A stretch of DNA of 64,000 nucleotides from a virus, in IMG/VR virus record IMGVR_UViG_3300036761_003779, positions 41,879 through 105,878 of that record; one strand, 5' to 3'. The notes beneath the pieces were generated by a model that saw only the letters and a list, made by a program, of their open reading frames with translations, had not been told where the DNA came from and ran no database searches. This document shows, one piece after another, positions 4,820-64,000 of this stretch; position 1 is the stretch's first letter, and each line of letters opens with the position of its first letter. The translations under genes and the position numbers were made by a program.

Positions 4820-7333
4820 CTACTCCTTCGGCCCGGCAACGATGATCTCGTCCCAGACCTCCATGTGGTCTACCTCGAAGCGGCGGACGTTCGTCCCCAG
4901 GACGCCGACCTGGCTCACGTGGAGGAAGGGCTGAACCCGCTTGTCCAGCCAGTCGGAGGCGCCCAGGCCGGCGAGACGGATATTCAGGGCGCTCACGGAG
5001 GACATCCCGGTCATCCAGTAGCTGATCGAGTTGACGGAGGTGTCCACCTCGAAGTAGAACTCCAGCCAGCCGGAGTCGTTGTTCGTGTTCCCGGAGGAGT
5101 CGAAGGTGGCCGCCGGTGCGCTGTTGTCGACCGGCCCGCCGGTTGAGCAGCGGGAGAACAGCTCCCAGTTCGCGCCGACGTTAGCGGTGTCATAGACCCG
5201 GAACTGGATGCACTCCGTTGTGGTCAGGCTGTTGAAGATCCCGAGCCCGTACCAGACGCACTGGTTGACCTGAATGGGGCGCGCCCGGGCGTAGAAGCGG
5301 AGCCGGCGGTAAACCGCCCCGGAGGTCCGGAGGATCCAGCAAGCCGGCCCCTCCCAGGAGAGCCCGTCCCCGGAGGCAATCCCCGCCGTGTCGATGTGGA
5401 GGATGTCCCCCTGACCCTGCATCCCGGTGCCAAAGATGTTCGTGTCGTTGAAGGAGGACGTCCCGCCGTTCCCCCAGGTTCGCGCCCACCACCGCTCGCT
5501 CCCCGGGAGCCCGATGGCCGACTCCGCGTAGTCGAAGCGGTCGACGAAGCGGTGGACGTCCGCCATCCGGCCGAAGGGCGTCCAGCGCATGATCTCCGTC
5601 CCGCGCTCGTCGAAGAGCCCAACCTGCCGGGTGGAGGGCTTCCCGAAGATGGGACCACTCGTCTGCTGCATTGGCTTGACGTTGAGCGCGTACTTGTCCG
5701 CCGCGCCCGACCCCTGAACCAGGGTCCGGAGGTCCAGGCCGCACTTCGTGTGAACCCCGGACTCCGCACCCACCGTCCCGATCCACTGCCCCAGTTGGAG
5801 GCGGCCACCCGGGCTCCCGTAGGCGGGCGCGTCGAAGTCGAGGCTCAGGAGGTCCCGCTGGTCCATCATCCCGGTCGTTGAGCTGATCCGGTTGTTCTTG
5901 GCGTTGACTAGCTTCCCGTAGCCGCGGCTCGGGGCAAGTGTGAGCATCGGCGTGCTGCTCCCGTTCCCGTCGATCCCGGGGAGGAGGAGCCCGAGCCAGT
6001 GGAGGATCGTCGAGGGTGCCGCGGAGGGCAGACCGTTGGAGAAGACCATGCGCGGCTGCATCACGGAAGCGACCTGACCGGTGAGTGCCGGCCAGGCCGG
6101 GGTGACTCCCGTCTGGAAGTCCCGGCATGCGACGGTGTTCGCCCCGACGCTGACGAAGGCGTACACGCCCGCGTAGGCGCCCGTCTTGAGCCAAATGAAC
6201 TGAACGTCCTTGTCCAGGTACCAGGCCAACGGGTTGGCGGAGGCGAAGGTGATCGTGTCCCCGGAGATGCTGCAGTTCTCGTTCCGGATCCCCCCGAACT
6301 CCTGGCAGAGCAGGAGCGGGACGGAGGAGACGTCCCCCATGAGGACCTCCAGGCTGAGCTGGAAGTAGTCGGTGCTGGCGAGCCGGCTGAGTCGGAGCTG
6401 CGCATTGTGGAGGTCGTCCGGTCCGGCGGAATCCGTGTTCATCTCCACCGCGCCGGCGTCCACCTCGATGGCGCGTCCGGAGCCCGCGGAGCCCGTACCG
6501 TCGTAGGCCAGGTCGAGGGTCGGCGGCATGAGGCCTGCCGTCACGTCGATCTGCCCCGCCGTGCTGAAGGCCACCGGCGTCCCGCCGGCACCCACGCCCG
6601 TCACCGAGCCGAGGTAGACGTAGGGATCCGTCACGCTCAGGTCCGTGTTCCTCCGGACCGTCACCCCGGTGGCCGCCGCCGTATAGTCGGTGGCCAGGAC
6701 GGAGGCGGAGCCGCTCCCCTGCCCGAGGAGCCCGGTCGTCACGACCACGTTTTGTCCGCCGGTCCACTGCACCGGGAGGTCCCGCTCGATGGCAACGTCC
6801 TCCTCCACGGTCTTCGGGGAGTTCAGCCACACCGTGACCTTCCGGCCGGCGTGGGAGACCCCGGACTCGAAGAGGGCGTCCACCACGAAGCGGAGCGTCC
6901 CGGCCACCTCCGTTACGCTGTTCGGGTTCCCGGAGAGCCCGATCCGGTCCTCCAGCATGTCGTAGTCGAGGAGCCCGGTCCGCGGGTTCCGGTCGATCCC
7001 CGTCGGGGTGAGGCAATGCCGCACGGCCGCGTAGTAGGTGACCCCCACCGTGTTCTGGAACTGGATCCCCGTCGCGTCCCCGGACGCGAGGGTGAGGATC
7101 AGGACGTGCCCCTCCCCGTCGAGGCACTCGACCGGGAGCGCGTCCACCTTGAACTTGTCCGCCCCGTCCGCGGAGAGGGTGGCGGTCCCGAAGACCCCGC
7201 GGCGGCCGCCAACCACCCGGTGGAGGGTCTCGTACAGCTCCTCTGCCAGGTAGTCAAAGAAGGTGTCCTTGAACCGCGTCTGCGGGAGGTGCCGCTTGTC
7301 CGCGAAGTTTGTCCTGAGGTTCCCGGTTGGCAT
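4820..7333 (-). CDS. Large tail/adsorption protein (837 aa)
   Basis: Runs from ATG 7333. The N-terminus (NLRTNFADKRHLPQTRFKDT) precedes a region like baseplate-attached proteins (ATGIQFQNTVGVTYYAAVRH). A long Gly/Thr/Ser-rich beta-structured body follows. The last third (YRRLRFYARARPIQVNQCVW ... FEVDTSVNSISYWMTGMSSV) looks like a jelly-roll or lectin-like domain. Size, composition and position between the I-like baseplate gene and the lysis cassette suggest a tail fibre or receptor-binding protein. The exact fold cannot be read from sequence alone. Confidence 0.7.
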   Translation of the reverse strand: MPTGNLRTNFADKRHLPQTRFKDTFFDYLAEELYETLHRVVGGRRGVFGTATLSADGADKFKVDALPVECLDGEGHVLILTLASGDATGIQFQNTVGVTYYAAVRHCLTPTGIDRNPRTGLLDYDMLEDRIGLSGNPNSVTEVAGTLRFVVDALFESGVSHAGRKVTVWLNSPKTVEEDVAIERDLPVQWTGGQNVVVTTGLLGQGSGSASVLATDYTAAATGVTVRRNTDLSVTDPYVYLGSVTGVGAGGTPVAFSTAGQIDVTAGLMPPTLDLAYDGTGSAGSGRAIEVDAGAVEMNTDSAGPDDLHNAQLRLSRLASTDYFQLSLEVLMGDVSSVPLLLCQEFGGIRNENCSISGDTITFASANPLAWYLDKDVQFIWLKTGAYAGVYAFVSVGANTVACRDFQTGVTPAWPALTGQVASVMQPRMVFSNGLPSAAPSTILHWLGLLLPGIDGNGSSTPMLTLAPSRGYGKLVNAKNNRISSTTGMMDQRDLLSLDFDAPAYGSPGGRLQLGQWIGTVGAESGVHTKCGLDLRTLVQGSGAADKYALNVKPMQQTSGPIFGKPSTRQVGLFDERGTEIMRWTPFGRMADVHRFVDRFDYAESAIGLPGSERWWARTWGNGGTSSFNDTNIFGTGMQGQGDILHIDTAGIASGDGLSWEGPACWILRTSGAVYRRLRFYARARPIQVNQCVWYGLGIFNSLTTTECIQFRVYDTANVGANWELFSRCSTGGPVDNSAPAATFDSSGNTNNDSGWLEFYFEVDTSVNSISYWMTGMSSVSALNIRLAGLGASDWLDKRVQPFLHVSQVGVLGTNVRRFEVDHMEVWDEIIVAGPKE

Positions 7334-41866: not shown

Positions 41867-42220
41867 TTATGAAGGAGGCGTCCAGCGCGCGCGGCCCCGC
41901 TTGTCCAGGTCCACCCGGAAGCGGCCGGAGCGCCCGTTGAGGAACATCGTGAGGGAAAGGAGGACCCCGTCAGAGAGGGCGGAGACCCGCTCCGCGGCCG
42001 GCTCCCCCGCCCGGTCCCGGAGGACCTCGGCGGAGAAGCGGACCCCCCGGAAGCGCCGCGGGAGCGGAAGATCCGCCCGCGCCCCGCCCGTCCCGAGGGC
42101 CACGCCCGTGAGCGCGCCCCCGTCCGGACCGGACGCCAGGGTCTCCCACCCCCGGAGCCCGTCCGGGGTCAGGATGTCGAAGGGCATGACCCTCCCGTCG
42201 ATGAGGCTGGCGTACAACAA
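41867..42220 (-). CDS. Small head-region protein (117 aa)
   Basis: The earliest start is TTG 42220 without a clear ribosome site; ATG at residue 12 follows GGGAGG at very short spacing and is an alternative. The product has a soluble beta-rich body (LPRRFRGVRFSAEVLRDRAG) and a basic C-terminus (GRFRVDLDKRGRARWTPPS). Unknown function. Confidence 0.55.
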   Translation of the reverse strand: MLYASLIDGRVMPFDILTPDGLRGWETLASGPDGGALTGVALGTGGARADLPLPRRFRGVRFSAEVLRDRAGEPAAERVSALSDGVLLSLTMFLNGRSGRFRVDLDKRGRARWTPPS

Positions 42221-59675: not shown

Positions 59676-60346
59676 CCGAGCGCCTCCCGGACGTCCAGGC
59701 GCTCGACCTGGACCCCGTTCCGCTTGAGGATCTTCATGGCGTCCCCCGATAACCCGTAGCGGCTGTCGTAGGGCTCCGCAAAGACCACGCGCGCCACCCG
59801 GACCCGGAGGAACCGCTTGGCGCAGTCCCAGCAGGCGCCCGCCGTCGTGTAGACCGTCGCGCCCGCCGGCGTCGTCCCGTCCAGCGCGCACTGCAGCAGG
59901 GCGTTCTCCTCCGCGTGGAGGGTCCGGACGCAGTGCTCGCCCCGGATGAGGTGCCCGCCGCTCAGCTCACCGCCGCACTTGGGGCACTTCCCGGCCTGGA
60001 TCTCCGCCTTCCCGAAGCCCCGCTCGTCCGTCCCCTCCGGGAAGCCCCCGGACCAGTCCGCGTCGCAGCCCAGACACCTCAGCTCGAAGCAGTGCGGCTC
60101 CCCGGGCGGGCTCCCGTTGTAGCCCCCGGCGATGATGCGGTGCTCCCGGACCAGGACCGCGCCCACGCCGTGCCGCCCGGCGTCCAGGAGCAGCTCCGGC
60201 CCCCGGTCGCAGGTCGAGCGGGTGGCCGCCAGGTGGGCGTGGAGCATGAAGAAATACGGCCAGTCGAGCCTTGGAATCCTCAGACGACTCGGCTGTACGC
60301 CTTTCCTAACAGGATCGCGCGAACTGTACGAACGGAAACGCTCCAT
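59666..60346 (-). CDS. dCMP deaminase-like protein with altered 5' end (226 aa)
   Basis: The core ([60 protein letters not shown]) has the cytidine/dCMP-deaminase zinc site: HAE and CWDC. The position before the first Cys is Ala where the family usually has Pro. A zinc-ribbon insert ([12 protein letters not shown] ... [12 protein letters not shown]) is common in phage deaminases. The family start (about RPDWD.YF) corresponds to RLDWPYFF. In this gene it is preceded by a segment that repeats an upstream sequence with different codons. ATG 60346 lies within the HNH gene and has no good ribosome site. Confidence 0.8.
60266..60286 (-). repeat. Recoded target copy (RLRIPRL) joined to the deaminase
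   Basis: Encodes RLRIPRL directly before DWPYFF of the deaminase. The upstream fragment at 61107-61127 encodes RLRVPRL with a different codon at every position. Flanking residues (R-R/K-G before it) are also similar. Confidence 0.55.
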
Positions 60347-60894
60347 TCTCGAGCCAACTTTCTATGAGATGTTGCACCCAGCGCGTAGGACGCGCGGATC
60401 TCTCGAACCGCCTCATCCGTCAACTTCCGGAGACTCTTCCTCTGGTCCGCGCTGTAGTGCCGCTCCCCGCGCGGGACCTTCTCCGGTGACGTCTGGGTAT
60501 AGTGCCGCTCCCCGCGCGGGACCTTCTCCGGGCGTACACGGGAGTAGTGGACGTCCCCGCGCGGGACCTTCTCCGGGTTCCGCCGCGTCCAATGGGCGTC
60601 CCCGCTCGGGTAGAGCCCCTTTGCCGCGGCGTCCGCGCAGTTGTCCACGTGGGTCCCAAGGAAGAGATGACCCGGGTTCACGCAGCGCTTGTTGTCACAT
60701 GAGTGAAGAACGAACGCCCCCTTCGAGATCTCCCCGCGGGAGAGGATCCAGGCCACGCGGTGGGCGCCCTCCAGCACTCCCCGGAATGCAAACTTCCCGT
60801 AGCCGCTCCGGAAGATAGCCGCCGTCCAGTTCCAGCACTCCGCCTCCCCGCCACGGATGTACTTCTCGTCGAACCTGGCTTGGAGCGTCTTCAC
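60280..60894 (-). CDS. HNH homing endonuclease 1 (204 aa)
   Basis: HNH core: [56 protein letters not shown], with the paired Cys and the HNH histidines. A tandem repeat linker follows: three units of PEKVPRG(D/E)(V/R)HY plus five more residues (15 aa each) and a degenerate first unit. The C-terminus ([37 protein letters not shown]) is a helix-turn-helix. It starts in ATGA overlap with the ribbon-helix-helix gene, and its last 67 nt overlap the deaminase start in another frame. A mobile homing cassette is the best reading. Confidence 0.85.
60442..60576 (-). repeat. Three 45-bp tandem repeats in HNH gene 1
   Basis: Encode three 15-residue units beginning PEKVPRG(E/D) in the linker between nuclease and helix-turn-helix. 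A fourth, diverged unit ([12 protein letters not shown]) precedes them. Near-identical DNA indicates recent duplication. Confidence 0.7.
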
Positions 60895-61043
60895 CTCCGC
60901 CCCTCCATCTCCCGCCGGAGTAGCTCCCGGACGAACTCAGACTTTGTACAGCCTAGCCGCTCGCACTCCTCCTCGAGCCACTTCATCAGAACCGGGGGGA
61001 GCCACGCAAATAGCTTCTCGATGTTCTTCTTTGGTCTTGTCAT
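60891..61043 (-). CDS. Ribbon-helix-helix (CopG-like) protein, leaderless (50 aa)
   Basis: ATG 61043 is 6 nt from a near-consensus -10 box, so the transcript should be leaderless. The protein ([49 protein letters not shown]) has a beta strand and two helices with the [10 protein letters not shown] signature. It probably represses its own promoter and controls the coupled HNH gene (ATGA overlap). A longer in-frame reading upstream to 61286 exists but crosses the promoter and a truncated gene. Confidence 0.75.
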
Positions 61044-61049
61044 GAACCT

Positions 61050-61078
61050 ATTATAGATACCTAGACAGGTTCTGTAAA
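61050..61078 (-). promoter_or_regulatory. Near-consensus sigma70-type promoter for RHH-HNH cassette
   Basis: -35 TTTACA (61073-61078), 17-bp spacer, -10 TATAAT (61050-61055), then 6 nt to ATG 61043. An inverted repeat ACAG-AAC-CTGT overlaps the -35 side and may be the operator for the encoded RHH protein. It is the most AT-rich spot in this part of the window. Confidence 0.75.
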
Positions 61079-61106
61079 GAAACGGAAGACGTTCATCTTC
61101 AGAGGG

Positions 61107-61286
61107 CAGTCGCGGAACCCGGAGCCGCGCCTCCTCCCGCCCGCGCCTCCGCGCCTCGTCCAGGGCCAGCCGGACGGACTCCACGCTCCCGAGGTTGACC
61201 ATCAGGGTCCAGGGCGCCTCCGGTTTGGACGCCCCGCGCATGTTCGCGCCCGTCCGCGGGTCGTCCGAGAAGTCGGTTTCGCTCAT
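61107..61286 (-). pseudogene. Displaced 5' gene fragment (possibly native start of the deaminase gene)
   Basis: ATG 61286 overlaps the glycosylase stop (ATGA) and the first 60 codons look coding (SETDFSDDPRTGANMRGASK ... LDEARRRGREEARLRVPRL). After RLRVPRL the sequence changes to the AT-richer RHH-HNH cassette. The next gene downstream resumes after a recoded RLRIPRL with DWPYFF. So this fragment is probably the original 5' end of the deaminase gene (or of a gene ending there), cut off by insertion. In frame it reads through into the RHH gene. Confidence 0.55.
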
Positions 61287-61831
61287 TCCACGTCCTCCAC
61301 GACGTTGTCCGCGGTTGCCGCGGCGCGCCAGATCTCCAGGTCCAGCCCCCGAGGGGTCTTCCCGGCCGCCTCCGCCTCCCGCAGGTAGATGGCCTCCAGC
61401 GCCCCGTAGAGGCGCCCGGAACCTGGTGGGGTACTAGGAGTCGGGTGCCCGCGCTCACGTAACCAGCGGAGCACGTGGCGGTCCAGGACAGCGTATTTCT
61501 CCCACGGCCGGGTCCAGGTCACGAAGAAGCGGCTCGTCTTGGGCCCAATCCCCGGGATCCGCTCCAGCTCCTCCGGGGTGACCGCGAAGAGGTCCAGCCC
61601 CGCCTCCCGGAGCGCCCGGCACGCGGCCTCCAGCTTCCCGTAGTTGCCCGTGCGGGCGGCCCGGAGGAAGGGTCCCGGCTCCCCGACCCCGAGGAACAGG
61701 ATGGGGATCCGGAGGCAGCCGCGCGGGATGACCTCCTGGAGCCGCTTGACCGCCCCGTTGGCGAACCGCGCGGACTTCCCGGCCACGACAAGGGCGTAGA
61801 CCAGCCGCCACTCGAGCTGAGCGCGGGTCAC
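61283..61831 (-). CDS. HhH-GPD DNA glycosylase (182 aa)
   Basis: GTG 61831 overlaps the previous stop (GTGA). Contains the helix-hairpin-helix LERIPGIGPKTSRFFVTW, an aspartate-bearing loop AVLDRHVLRWL, and an N-terminal helical region VYALVVAGKSARFANGAVKR. This matches base-excision glycosylases of the endonuclease III/OGG superfamily. No FeS cluster cysteines are visible. It may remove damaged or non-standard bases in phage or host DNA. Confidence 0.75.
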   Translation of the reverse strand: MTRAQLEWRLVYALVVAGKSARFANGAVKRLQEVIPRGCLRIPILFLGVGEPGPFLRAARTGNYGKLEAACRALREAGLDLFAVTPEELERIPGIGPKTSRFFVTWTRPWEKYAVLDRHVLRWLRERGHPTPSTPPGSGRLYGALEAIYLREAEAAGKTPRGLDLEIWRAAATADNVVEDVE

Positions 61832-62046
61832 CGGCACCTGCCCCTCCGGCAGTCCCGGGAGGCGCACTCCCGGTCTTGCCGGCAAACCGCGCCCGGCGCC
61901 CAGCCCCTCGGCGCCTCGCAGCGTCCGCGCCGACAGTCCCGGGAGGCGCACTCCCGGCGGTGCTCGCAGGGCGCGCCGGCGGGCTTCTCCCAGGCGAGCC
62001 CGGGAGCGGGGAGGAGGAGCAGCGCGGCGAGGAGGGCCGGCCTCAC
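61828..62046 (-). CDS. Secreted cysteine-repeat peptide (72 aa)
   Basis: GTG 62046 overlaps the previous stop (GTGA). A clear signal peptide (RPALLAALLLLPAPGLAWEK) is followed by about 48 residues with eight cysteines in two repeats: PCEHRRECASRDCRRGRCEA and VCRQDRECASRDCRRGRC. The repeats share 24 identical bp of DNA. The Cys spacing (C-x6-C-x4-C-x4-C) suggests a small disulfide-rich fold, possibly Dickkopf/colipase-like. A secreted phage peptide among metabolism genes is unusual; a role at the cell surface is possible. Confidence 0.65.
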   Translation of the reverse strand: MRPALLAALLLLPAPGLAWEKPAGAPCEHRRECASRDCRRGRCEAPRGWAPGAVCRQDRECASRDCRRGRCR

Positions 62047-62315
62047 GGCCGCGCCTCCCCCCGCTTCCGGGCGTTCATGGCGGCCCGGCACTCGTGGCAG
62101 TTCGGCTGAAGGTCGATCACGCCGTCCCCCATGTGCCGGAGCCCAACGCGCCCGACCGCCTTGGGGCGCCGGCAGCCCTGGCAGTAGACCTTCACGCGCG
62201 CCTCCGTCCCGCCGCCCGGGGTCTCCCGGAAGGTCTCCAGGAAGCGCAGGGAGATCTCGACGTCCCCGACGTGGATGCTGGTCCCCTCGACCCGGATCTC
62301 CGGTTTTCTACTCAT
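62043..62315 (-). CDS. Small zinc-binding protein (90 aa)
   Basis: ATG 62315 overlaps the upstream stop region (ATGAGTAG). After a beta-rich start (IRVEGTSIHVGDVEISLRFL) it has YCQGCRRPKA and NCHECRAAMN, two CxxC pairs for a zinc site. Basic C-terminus. Unknown function. Confidence 0.55.
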   Translation of the reverse strand: MSRKPEIRVEGTSIHVGDVEISLRFLETFRETPGGGTEARVKVYCQGCRRPKAVGRVGLRHMGDGVIDLQPNCHECRAAMNARKRGEARP

Positions 62316-62793
62316 CCTTGTCCTCCTCCGGCTCGAACTCGGCCGCGACCCACGCGCAGTCCTCCTGGATGCCCTCGAGGCGCCCCAGCGTCCCGGGGAG
62401 GCGGTCCTCCCCGTCCTCATGCCTCCGGACCGCCCGGGCCATCTCCGCGTGCGCGAAGGTCCCGAGGGTGGCCCCGAAGACCAGCGCGCGCTCCCCCATC
62501 ACGCGGCACGTCAGGCGCGCCGCCTGGACCGTCTCGTGCTCCTCCGCGGTGAGCGCCGGGTTCACCTCGCGGACCTTCTCCGCCGCCCGGAGGAGGCTGC
62601 GGCAGGCCGCCACGAAGGTCCGGAGCGGGCTGTCCTCCGGCCCGCGCGCCACCACGGCCACCGGGATCCGATCCGGCCCGGTGACCACGGAGCACTCGAC
62701 CGCCCAGCCGTCCGCCTTGAGGTCCTTCACCAGCTCCCGCATCGCCGCCAGCTCCGCCGGCGTGAACGCGGACTCGGGCATCTTGTCAGTCAT
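62308..62793 (-). CDS. Protein of unknown function (161 aa)
   Basis: Starts ATG 62793. The first part (AAMRELVKDLKADGWAVECS, VVTGPDRIPVAVVARG) is alpha/beta; the rest is helical (AACRSLLRAAEKVREVNPAL). Acidic end. No family recognised. Packed between two small genes in the nucleotide-metabolism block. Confidence 0.6.
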   Translation of the reverse strand: MTDKMPESAFTPAELAAMRELVKDLKADGWAVECSVVTGPDRIPVAVVARGPEDSPLRTFVAACRSLLRAAEKVREVNPALTAEEHETVQAARLTCRVMGERALVFGATLGTFAHAEMARAVRRHEDGEDRLPGTLGRLEGIQEDCAWVAAEFEPEEDKDE

Positions 62794-63037
62794 CGCTCCT
62801 CCACTCGGCCAGGCGCCGCTCGAGGTCGTCCCGCTCGTCCCGGAGCGCCCGGTGGAGCGTGCCCGCCATGACCAGGTCCCGGACCAGGTTGACCACGCAG
62901 ACCGCGGAGACGTCGTCCCCGCGCGTCCGCGCCTCCCGGAGGAGGTGCTTGAGCCGGTTCCGCGCCTGCGCCGCGCGCTCCGCCGGGAGGAGGTCCGCCA
63001 GGATGATGTCCGAAATTGAGTTGGGGTCTTCCGCCAT
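62786..63037 (-). CDS. Small helical protein (83 aa)
   Basis: Mostly helical and charged (AERAAQARNRLKHLLREART, LHRALRDERDDLERRLAEWR), with LVMAGTLH in the middle. It overlaps the next gene. Could be a small regulatory or adaptor protein; unknown. Confidence 0.55.
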   Translation of the reverse strand: MAEDPNSISDIILADLLPAERAAQARNRLKHLLREARTRGDDVSAVCVVNLVRDLVMAGTLHRALRDERDDLERRLAEWRSDD

Positions 63038-63065
63038 GCTCAGGGGTAGGCGGAGATGAGCGGAC

Positions 63066-63098
63066 TCAGCCGCAGCCGGTCGTCGTCCCGCAGGTGAG
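63066..63098 (-). repeat. Displaced native reductase 3' end fused to HNH gene 2
   Basis: Ten codons (LTCGTTTGCG) plus TGA, identical in protein to 63611-63640 but with 8 synonymous codon differences. GC-rich third positions match the rest of the genome, so this appears to be the original 3' end. Confidence 0.75.
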
Positions 63099-63608
63099 GG
63101 CGTTCGAGACGTGCTTCCAGATCTGCCGATTGGCTATCCGGTCCACCGTCCGCCGATTGATCCCCACGGACTCCGCGATAACGCGCCGCGACTCAGAAGG
63201 AAGGCGGAGGAGAACCTCCCGCACGCGGTCCTCGCTCATCTTCGAGGCCCCATTCCGCTCCCCATGCGCCGCCCGCTCCGGATGGAGCCGGAGTCCGTGA
63301 CGTTCCCCGCGGACGTGGACCTGCCTCCCCTTGGCCACGCAGTCCCGGACGTTCTCCGCGTGGGTCCCCGGGATCAAGTGGCTCGGGTTGCAGCACGGTG
63401 GGTTGTCACACGTATGGCGGACCGCCTCCGCGTCCGTCGGTCCGAAGGTCAGTTCGTAGGCCATGCGGTGGGCGCCAACCTCCCGCCCGTCCCGGAAGAC
63501 CCGCCCATATCCCTTCTTGCTCCGCAGTGCGGTCCAGAGCCAGCAGGCGTCCGGTCCCCCGCTCCGGTCCACGCGGCTCCAGAAGTCCGAGTTGGGTCTC
63601 CTACGCAT
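63066..63608 (-). CDS. HNH homing endonuclease 2, ending in a copy of the reductase C-terminus (180 aa)
   Basis: ATG 63608 overlaps the reductase TAA (TAATG). HNH core: ACWLWTALRSKKGYGRVF, GAHRMAYELTFG, VRHTCDNPPCCNPSHLIPGT, HAENVRDCVAKG. A linker (RGERHGLRLHPERAAHGERN) leads to a helix-turn-helix (VREVLLRLPSESRRVIAESV, GINRRTVDRI). The last ten residues LTCGTTTGCG repeat the reductase C-terminus, using GC-rich native-style codons. Probably a mobile homing gene inserted at the reductase 3' end. Confidence 0.85.
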   Translation of the reverse strand: MRRRPNSDFWSRVDRSGGPDACWLWTALRSKKGYGRVFRDGREVGAHRMAYELTFGPTDAEAVRHTCDNPPCCNPSHLIPGTHAENVRDCVAKGRQVHVRGERHGLRLHPERAAHGERNGASKMSEDRVREVLLRLPSESRRVIAESVGINRRTVDRIANRQIWKHVSNALTCGTTTGCG

Positions 63609-63640
63609 TAGCCGCATCCCGTTGTAGTTCCGCATGTCAA
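63608..63640 (-). repeat. Recoded reductase 3' end
   Basis: Encodes LTCGTTTGCG then TAA with unusual A/T-ending codons (Leu TTG, Thr ACA/ACT, Gly GGA). The A/T-ending codons begin about seven codons earlier, suggesting that a slightly longer recoded segment arrived with the HNH cassette. Confidence 0.75.
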
Positions 63641-64000
63641 ACACCTATGGCAGTTCCCGTTTGGTTCCGTGATGGCGCCGCAGTTCGAGCAGGGCGGCCC
63701 GGAGTCGTGGATCCGCCGCGTCACGTGCTCGACCGCCGCCTCGAGCGCCTCCGCGACCGTGGCGCCGCCCGCGGGCTTCTCCGCCGCCCCGAACCGCCCA
63801 CCCGGGAAGCGCCGCTCCACCCAGCGGACCAGGTAGTCGAGCGGGGAGGTCACCGCGCCGATGTCCGGGTTGTCCGAGTAGCCGAAGGGCTCGAAGCGCG
63901 TCCGCCGGAACTTCTCCGCCAGGTCGTCCCAGGGGACCCCGTACTGGAGCGCAATCGAGATCGAGGTGGCCCAGGCGTCCATGAGGCCCCGGACCGTGCT
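63608..64000 (-). CDS. nrdJ: Class II (B12-dependent) ribonucleotide reductase, C-terminal part
   Basis: The open frame extends to the right edge; the visible residues read STVRGLMDAWATSISIALQY then GVPWDDLAEKFRRTRFEPFG, SDNPDIGAVTSPLDYLVRWV, and end with CSNCGAITEPNGNCHRCLTC and GTTTGCG. This is the normal C-terminus of adenosylcobalamin-dependent reductases, with a zinc/redox cysteine tail. It converts ribonucleotides to deoxyribonucleotides. Most of the gene lies beyond the window. Its last codons are recoded. Confidence 0.9.
   Translation of the reverse strand, partial: STVRGLMDAWATSISIALQYGVPWDDLAEKFRRTRFEPFGYSDNPDIGAVTSPLDYLVRWVERRFPGGRFGAAEKPAGGATVAEALEAAVEHVTRRIHDSGPPCSNCGAITEPNGNCHRCLTCGTTTGCG

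Follow-up and report, generated by a model that had tools for sequence, protein, structure and literature searches.

A predicted home-and-rescue homing cassette at the 3' end of a phage ribonucleotide reductase gene

The 64,000-nucleotide stretch analysed here (the window; IMG/VR virus record IMGVR_UViG_3300036761_003779, positions 41,879 to 105,878) makes up the right-hand portion of a phage contig of 105,878 bases and raises the question of why nrdJ, which encodes a class II ribonucleotide reductase, is directly followed by an HNH endonuclease gene whose product ends in the same ten residues, LTCGTTTGCG, as the reductase itself. The locus is very probably a free-standing 'home-and-rescue' homing cassette, in which a recoded nrdJ 3' end is fused to the gene of an HNH_3 homing endonuclease. 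The following features were distinguished (positions are those of the window; GC3, fraction of codons with G or C at the third position):

63608..64000, minus strand: 3' part of nrdJ (class II ribonucleotide reductase, TSCPD region; PF12637 TSCPD, E 2.6e-05)
63608..63667, minus strand: recoded nrdJ 3' end attached to the gene, encoding EPNGNCHRCLTCGTTTGCG and the stop (GC3 10/19)
63606..63610, minus strand: TAATG, in which the nrdJ stop (63610-63608) overlaps the most likely HNH start codon, ATG (63608-63606), as read from the sequence
63066..63608, minus strand: HNH_3 endonuclease gene, 180 amino acids from ATG (PF13392, E 3e-09)
63066..63098, minus strand: relic, the putative displaced native nrdJ end, CTC ACC TGC GGG ACG ACG ACC GGC TGC GGC TGA (GC3 10/10)

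The original prediction, made from the letters of the stretch alone, had described identical LTCGTTTGCG ends of the nrdJ and HNH products with nine synonymous differences in 33 nucleotides, and direct reading of the sequence bore this out. The attached nrdJ end reads GAA CCA AAC GGG AAC TGC CAT AGG TGT TTG ACA TGC GGA ACT ACA ACG GGA TGC GGC TAA, where the codons from TTG onward (63608-63640, minus strand) specify LTCGTTTGCG and the stop. It shares 24/33 nucleotides with the relic; three of the 11 codons are identical, eight synonymous and none nonsynonymous. Recoding had been claimed for the last ten residues; these are recoded, but the odd codons begin nine codons further upstream (~63667, GAA CCA AAC). 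The nrdJ/relic alignment scored ~62 (sum of BLOSUM62 values, stop included), compared with a maximum of 60 among 3,508 control pairs, which were mismatched, matched for GC content and drawn from other HNH loci; by this measure the match between the nrdJ end and the HNH-terminal copy is not a chance one.

Those nrdJ codons of the window that precede the odd stretch have a GC3 of 109/111, compared with 10/19 for the last 19 attached codons (Fisher p = 2e-7), and among the 93 called genes of the phage genome nrdJ alone has a GC3 of <= 0.56 in its last 19 codons. The earlier claim that the copy at the HNH end carries the GC-rich codons of the genome, whereas the attached copy looks foreign, agrees with these values. 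The attached end is also lower in GC3 than the adjoining HNH gene (144/170, p = 0.002) and is therefore not merely AT-rich donor DNA that arrived with this gene. The HNH_3 domain (PF13392) scored 36.8 bits against a Pfam gathering cut-off of 24.8. The HNH protein terminates with ...IWKHV SNA LTCGTTTGCG, and its family homologues align over residues ~10-169, its own homology ending at ~168-173 (IWKHV), ahead of the duplicated tail; a conserved origin of the HNH-terminal copy within the endonuclease family, which the original prediction had named as grounds for its refutation, was thereby excluded. Because of the GC3 contrast and of the HNH homology stopping before the duplicated residues, the copy behind the HNH gene is, on these grounds, the original nrdJ end and the attached copy the newcomer. 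Viral contigs queried with the nrdJ C-terminus alone gave no matches. The nearest nrdJ relative (L014, 74% amino-acid identity, without HNH gene) has an end about equally distant from both copies (22/33 and 20/33 nucleotides), and the nrdJ ends of L014-L017, compared over 33 nucleotides, favour neither. The L014 end is AT-shifted too, but equally low ends are found in 7/75 genes there compared with 1/93 here; this end was considered as a refutation, being an A/T-rich ending in an HNH-less relative, and was dismissed on account of the frequency of such ends in L014.

The nrdJ frame runs uninterrupted to TAA with a complete conserved C-terminus, and the HNH gene directly adjoins it; a split-gene insertion of the Aeh1 mobE type was ruled out by this uninterrupted frame. 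The TAATG overlap is likely to couple the translation of nrdJ and the HNH gene, and at the other end the relic lies in frame with the HNH gene and provides its stop (TGA). The remainder of nrdJ is located at the opposite end of the contig (1-2268, minus strand; N-part open reading frame (ORF) of 756 amino acids), so that the gene is split across both contig ends (contig 1-2268 of L004; window 63608-64000), with ~40 bases apparently absent between the parts. The contig probably represents nearly all of a circular or circularly permuted phage genome.

A scan of HNH_3 loci for duplicated ends surfaced the mycobacteriophages Misha28 and SkinnyPete (L213/L307, L302), which carry a cassette at a C5-methyltransferase gene. 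The attached end of this gene (TCT GGA AAT GCT GTT ACA CCT TGC GCT GCA AGG GAT TTA GTT GGA GTA GTA...) is followed by the HNH gene and then by a relic (AAC GCG GTC ACC CCA CCG GCC GCG CGC GAC CTC GTC...), whose sequence forms, exactly or nearly, the uninterrupted methylase end in the HNH-less phages TChen, Piper2020 and Mao1. The attached end of Misha28 is recoded at 17/24 codons; its relic matches the native TChen end in 72/72 nucleotides, and the 700 bases from the relic onward are 99.86% identical. The original prediction that an HNH gene had entered before the last codons, bringing a recoded end and leaving the native end 3' of itself, was supported, with the same arrangement realised exactly in the Misha28/TChen pair. 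Across Misha28, SkinnyPete, Awesomesauce and DocMcStuffins, the HNH gene (588/588 nucleotides) and the recoded tail (93/93 nucleotides) are identical, whereas the relics differ among the four phages; downstream identity ends at the relic, and three different downstream contexts follow. Upstream, Misha28 and SkinnyPete are 100% identical over 540 nucleotides and 83-95% identical thereafter. The recoded methylase tail was found in no HNH-less phage among 50,697 phage records (next best match, 72%). Since tail and HNH gene are identical and the relics phage-specific, this comparison of genomes shows that the recoded gene end and the HNH gene move as one unit, the relic being the recipient's own displaced end. 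The pattern, in which co-conversion extends to the left while the right-hand boundary is fixed, is the signature predicted for homing. In Gordonia phage Bradissa (L305, MK433274), a Misha28-related HNH gene followed by a methylase-end relic (NAVTPPAARDLVGVVAESLGVA and the stop) was observed at 1502-2164, but no methylase gene precedes it, the cassette or its right half having evidently moved or lost its gene in this phage.

The survey drew on viral and bacterial contigs and comprised 298 non-redundant HNH_3 genes, of which 237 had a preceding gene on the same strand. Expected counts were derived from GC-matched mismatched pairs, a test adopted because plain six-frame tblastx comparison of the flanks gave many spurious GC-rich matches; a version of the scan that used the longest upstream ORF only missed L152. 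Among the 237 loci, the duplicated 3' end reached a score of at least 40 in nine (0.88 expected) and of at least 45 in six (0.27 expected), so that such ends are enriched tenfold among HNH_3 genes. The inspected cases included three further C5-methylases (L317, L315, L318), a prophage gene of Isoptericola (L401) and another gene resembling a DNA methylase (L360), as well as L152, L103 and L148. The GC3 of the relic exceeded that of the attached end in 10/11 cases including nrdJ, with one tie; in 7/11 cases the relic was in frame and gave the HNH gene its stop, and in several (L213, L152, L103) it was out of frame. The HNH tails at other loci match whichever gene stands upstream. The C5-cytosine methyltransferases of L315, L317, L318 and L213 were observed to be struck by independent HNH cassettes at the conserved GNAV(T)PP motif, and this motif is a predicted recurrent homing target. 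Duplications at or near gene starts were seen at an SSB gene (L300), a DNA-polymerase-like gene (L115) and L356 (28 residues). This 5' class is weakly enriched overall (5 compared with 2.3 expected at score 45) and its case is therefore made by the individual loci together with a deaminase gene for which an empty site is available. Among the scan matches, L139, L107 and L220 and the frame-dubious 5'-type matches of L148/L401 were not counted as evidence.

This deaminase cassette lies in the same phage as the nrdJ cassette, at the 5' end of a dCMP deaminase gene, and comprises the following features:

61104..61127, minus strand: native dCMP deaminase 5' codons, upstream of the insert, RLRVPRLP (CGG CTC CGG GTT CCG CGA CTG CCC); L014 is uninterrupted there
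60891..61043, minus strand: small ORF inside the insert, in the stretch missing from L014, ribbon-helix-helix-like by eye
60280..60894, minus strand: HNH_3 gene (PF13392, E 2.5e-11), the stop of which overlaps the recoded deaminase start region
60266..60286, minus strand: recoded 5' codons joined to the dCMP deaminase gene, RLRIPRL (CGT CTG AGG ATT CCA AGG CTC)

The colinear relative L014 represents the empty site, and the insert measures ~840 bp. Recoded and native copies differ in 7/7 codons with one conservative amino-acid change (V/I), and the gene-attached copy is the recoded one, as at nrdJ. Three or four tandem repeats of ~16-17 residues each (window 60420-60640, minus strand), possibly DNA-reading modules, occur in the HNH protein encoded at 60280-60894. 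The phage genome harbours six HNH_3 genes; relics at its other HNH sites (contig 5214-5684, 10622-11080 and 13277-13797) were suggestive or weak and are not claimed.

The cassette could move as follows. The HNH enzyme would cut the native gene end of a co-infecting phage near the insertion point, and recombination repair would then copy from the cassette-bearing genome, using the gene body as the left arm and the displaced end as the right arm. The recoded end would restore the essential gene and at the same time escape cutting; we infer that it is immune to cleavage. The native end kept on the right, probably the right homology arm, would supply homology for the next round and often also keep the stop/start overlap with the next gene. 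On balance, we lean towards the broader view that double-stranded DNA phages hold a widespread natural class of such home-and-rescue elements, in which HNH nucleases carry a synonymous, cleavage-resistant version of the 3' (or 5') end of their target, selected for resistance, and leave the displaced native end behind as a datable scar, which would reveal the target of each nuclease from sequence alone.

Several points weigh against the home-and-rescue interpretation of the nrdJ locus. A relic is detectable in only a minority of HNH_3 loci. No near-identical HNH-less nrdJ relative was found, and the 33-nucleotide relic resists phylogenetic placement. An HNH gene lay nearby in 0/80 other viral nrdJ loci, and no second phage with this nrdJ cassette was found. 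The recoding may, moreover, come from a diverged donor gene rather than from selection against self-cleavage.

The last point leads to the alternative that survives best, according to which the cassette is real and its recoding incidental, the attached end being the gene end of a diverged donor phage that was dragged along with the HNH gene and never selected for cleavage escape. This account is possible but rather doubtful. A comparable insertion in fungal mitochondria, where a C-terminal gene end accompanies an endonuclease ORF, has been read as a foreign homologue (PMC3630166), and the Misha28 tail shows four nonsynonymous differences from the relic, some of which, such as the SA ending, are common to related mycobacteriophage methylases. 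However, the GC3 of the tail deviates more than that of its companion HNH gene, not only at nrdJ, as given above, but also in Misha28 (p = 1e-4), no natural gene with the Misha28 tail occurs in the phage records searched, and the two nrdJ copies lack any amino-acid difference. If the nrdJ end had been duplicated in tandem and had then drifted neutrally, with an HNH gene inserted between the copies by coincidence, the two copies that flank the insert would be explained. Drift should, however, erode the non-functional downstream copy, which retains native codons, whereas it is the functional copy that is altered, and only in its last 19 codons; the arrangement also recurs at other genes, and this origin is very improbable. 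Equally hard to credit is a reading in which the LTCGTTTGCG tail has a function in the nuclease or is conserved in it, for instance as a zinc-binding tail, and resembles nrdJ by convergence: the tail is in frame and contains Cys, yet homologues end before it, the tails at other loci match their own upstream gene, and at L213, L152 and L103 the relic is out of frame. Least probable of all is an intron- or intein-type element with the downstream copy as true last exon and the upstream copy as decoy since, although group I introns commonly encode HNH_3 proteins, an Rfam search of window 60000-64000 gave neither an intron nor any other match at E <= 1, the upstream frame is complete by itself, and almost nothing but the HNH gene lies between the copies.

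Further possible traces of recoding were noted in the same phage and elsewhere. The last codons of an SbcC-like gene (GC3 0.94) are recoded (AGA AGC GGA GCT, compared with CGC TCC GGG GCG in G001) and followed by an HNH gene (L004 10622-11158, minus strand), behind which a decayed relic may lie; the same SbcC-like gene contains an AT-rich patch (GC3 0.2) over the conserved SLITHAD motif (L004 11142-11189, minus strand), which may mark the target site of the adjacent HNH nuclease. At L004 7944-8186 and 8013-8492 (plus strand), the 5' part of an RlpA-like gene bears an antisense HNH gene, and the RlpA-like gene is AT-recoded in its first conserved codons (GRLSVYKPGDGW) relative to G001. In L150, an HNH gene is flanked on both sides (~3950 and ~4460) by a non-coding sequence that resembles a promoter (TCCACCTGTGGTA.A.TGG), which looks like the duplication of an intergenic target. 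Apart from these traces, window 61828-62091 (minus strand) encodes a small protein that looks secreted and contains ECASRDCRRGRC twice, a cysteine pattern unusual in a phage.

The closest known counterparts are eukaryotic. For the WHO elements of the yeasts Torulaspora and Lachancea, home-and-rescue working has been modelled and tested (Coughlan et al. 2020, PMC7282813). As in the phage cassette, their nuclease gene lies just 3' of the target, which is functional and has a replaced 3' end, there cleavage-resistant (PMC7282813), and the old 3' end of the recipient is retained beyond the nuclease gene, where it serves as homology region in the yeasts and probably also in the phage. The mobile unit consists of the nuclease gene and the upstream gene end, as in the mycobacteriophage methylase cassette. 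WHO elements differ in that they target the eukaryotic nuclear gene FBA1, involve fragments of ~400 bp and encode an intein/zinc-finger nuclease, whereas the elements described here occur in double-stranded DNA phages, use an HNH_3 nuclease and tails of ~20-30 codons, strike several target genes and include 5'-end versions. Mobile ORFs of fungal mitochondria (Allomyces atp6; Glomus atp6, atp9, cox2 and nad3) likewise combine an inserted in-phase C-terminal sequence, an endonuclease ORF and the native C-terminal sequence downstream, with mostly synonymous divergence, but they are mitochondrial, encode LAGLIDADG or GIY-YIG enzymes and were explained by a foreign gene end having been acquired horizontally (PMC3630166). 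The phage cassette would thus work like both but stands outside those families because its nuclease is of the HNH_3 type, not an intein-zinc finger, LAGLIDADG or GIY-YIG enzyme. Among phages, T4 mobE, beside nrdA/nrdB, is also an HNH homing endonuclease gene at a ribonucleotide reductase locus and overlaps nrdA as UAAUGA, whereas Aeh1 mobE lies inside nrdA and splits the gene into two polypeptides, with neither a recoded rescue end nor a relic described (PMC2988022). In the collaborative homing of cyanophage S-PM2, the free-standing endonuclease F-CphI is similarly paired with a separate protection of its own target, but there an intron interrupting the site in psbA, not synonymous recoding, provides it (PMC6083498). 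A free-standing HNH gene gave lysin A of the Cluster J mycobacteriophage Omega a new 3' end, an event described as loss of 35 bp plus mosaicism, with no recoding, relic or rescue model (PMC3706429). The engineered home-and-rescue drive HomeR also places a homing nuclease at an essential gene with a re-coded 3' end and homology arms, but it is a synthetic CRISPR construct in Drosophila (PMC7968924). A survey of phage homing endonucleases does not mention recoding or synonymous change (PMC10448857). No phage precedent for a recoded-rescue cassette was found in the open-access literature, which is not proof of absence.

Free-standing homing endonucleases that spare their own genome beside an essential gene are known in phages mainly via introns or split genes. 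A recoded rescue end would be a third solution to the problem of self-cutting, one that until now has been described in fungi. The whole model is directly testable because its methylase version occurs in cultured phages of Mycobacterium smegmatis with HNH-less relatives (TChen, Piper2020). It would account for abrupt codon-usage patches at phage gene ends, the flanks of an uncharacterised HNH gene would predict the target of its nuclease, and the cassettes would represent a natural counterpart to engineered home-and-rescue gene drives.
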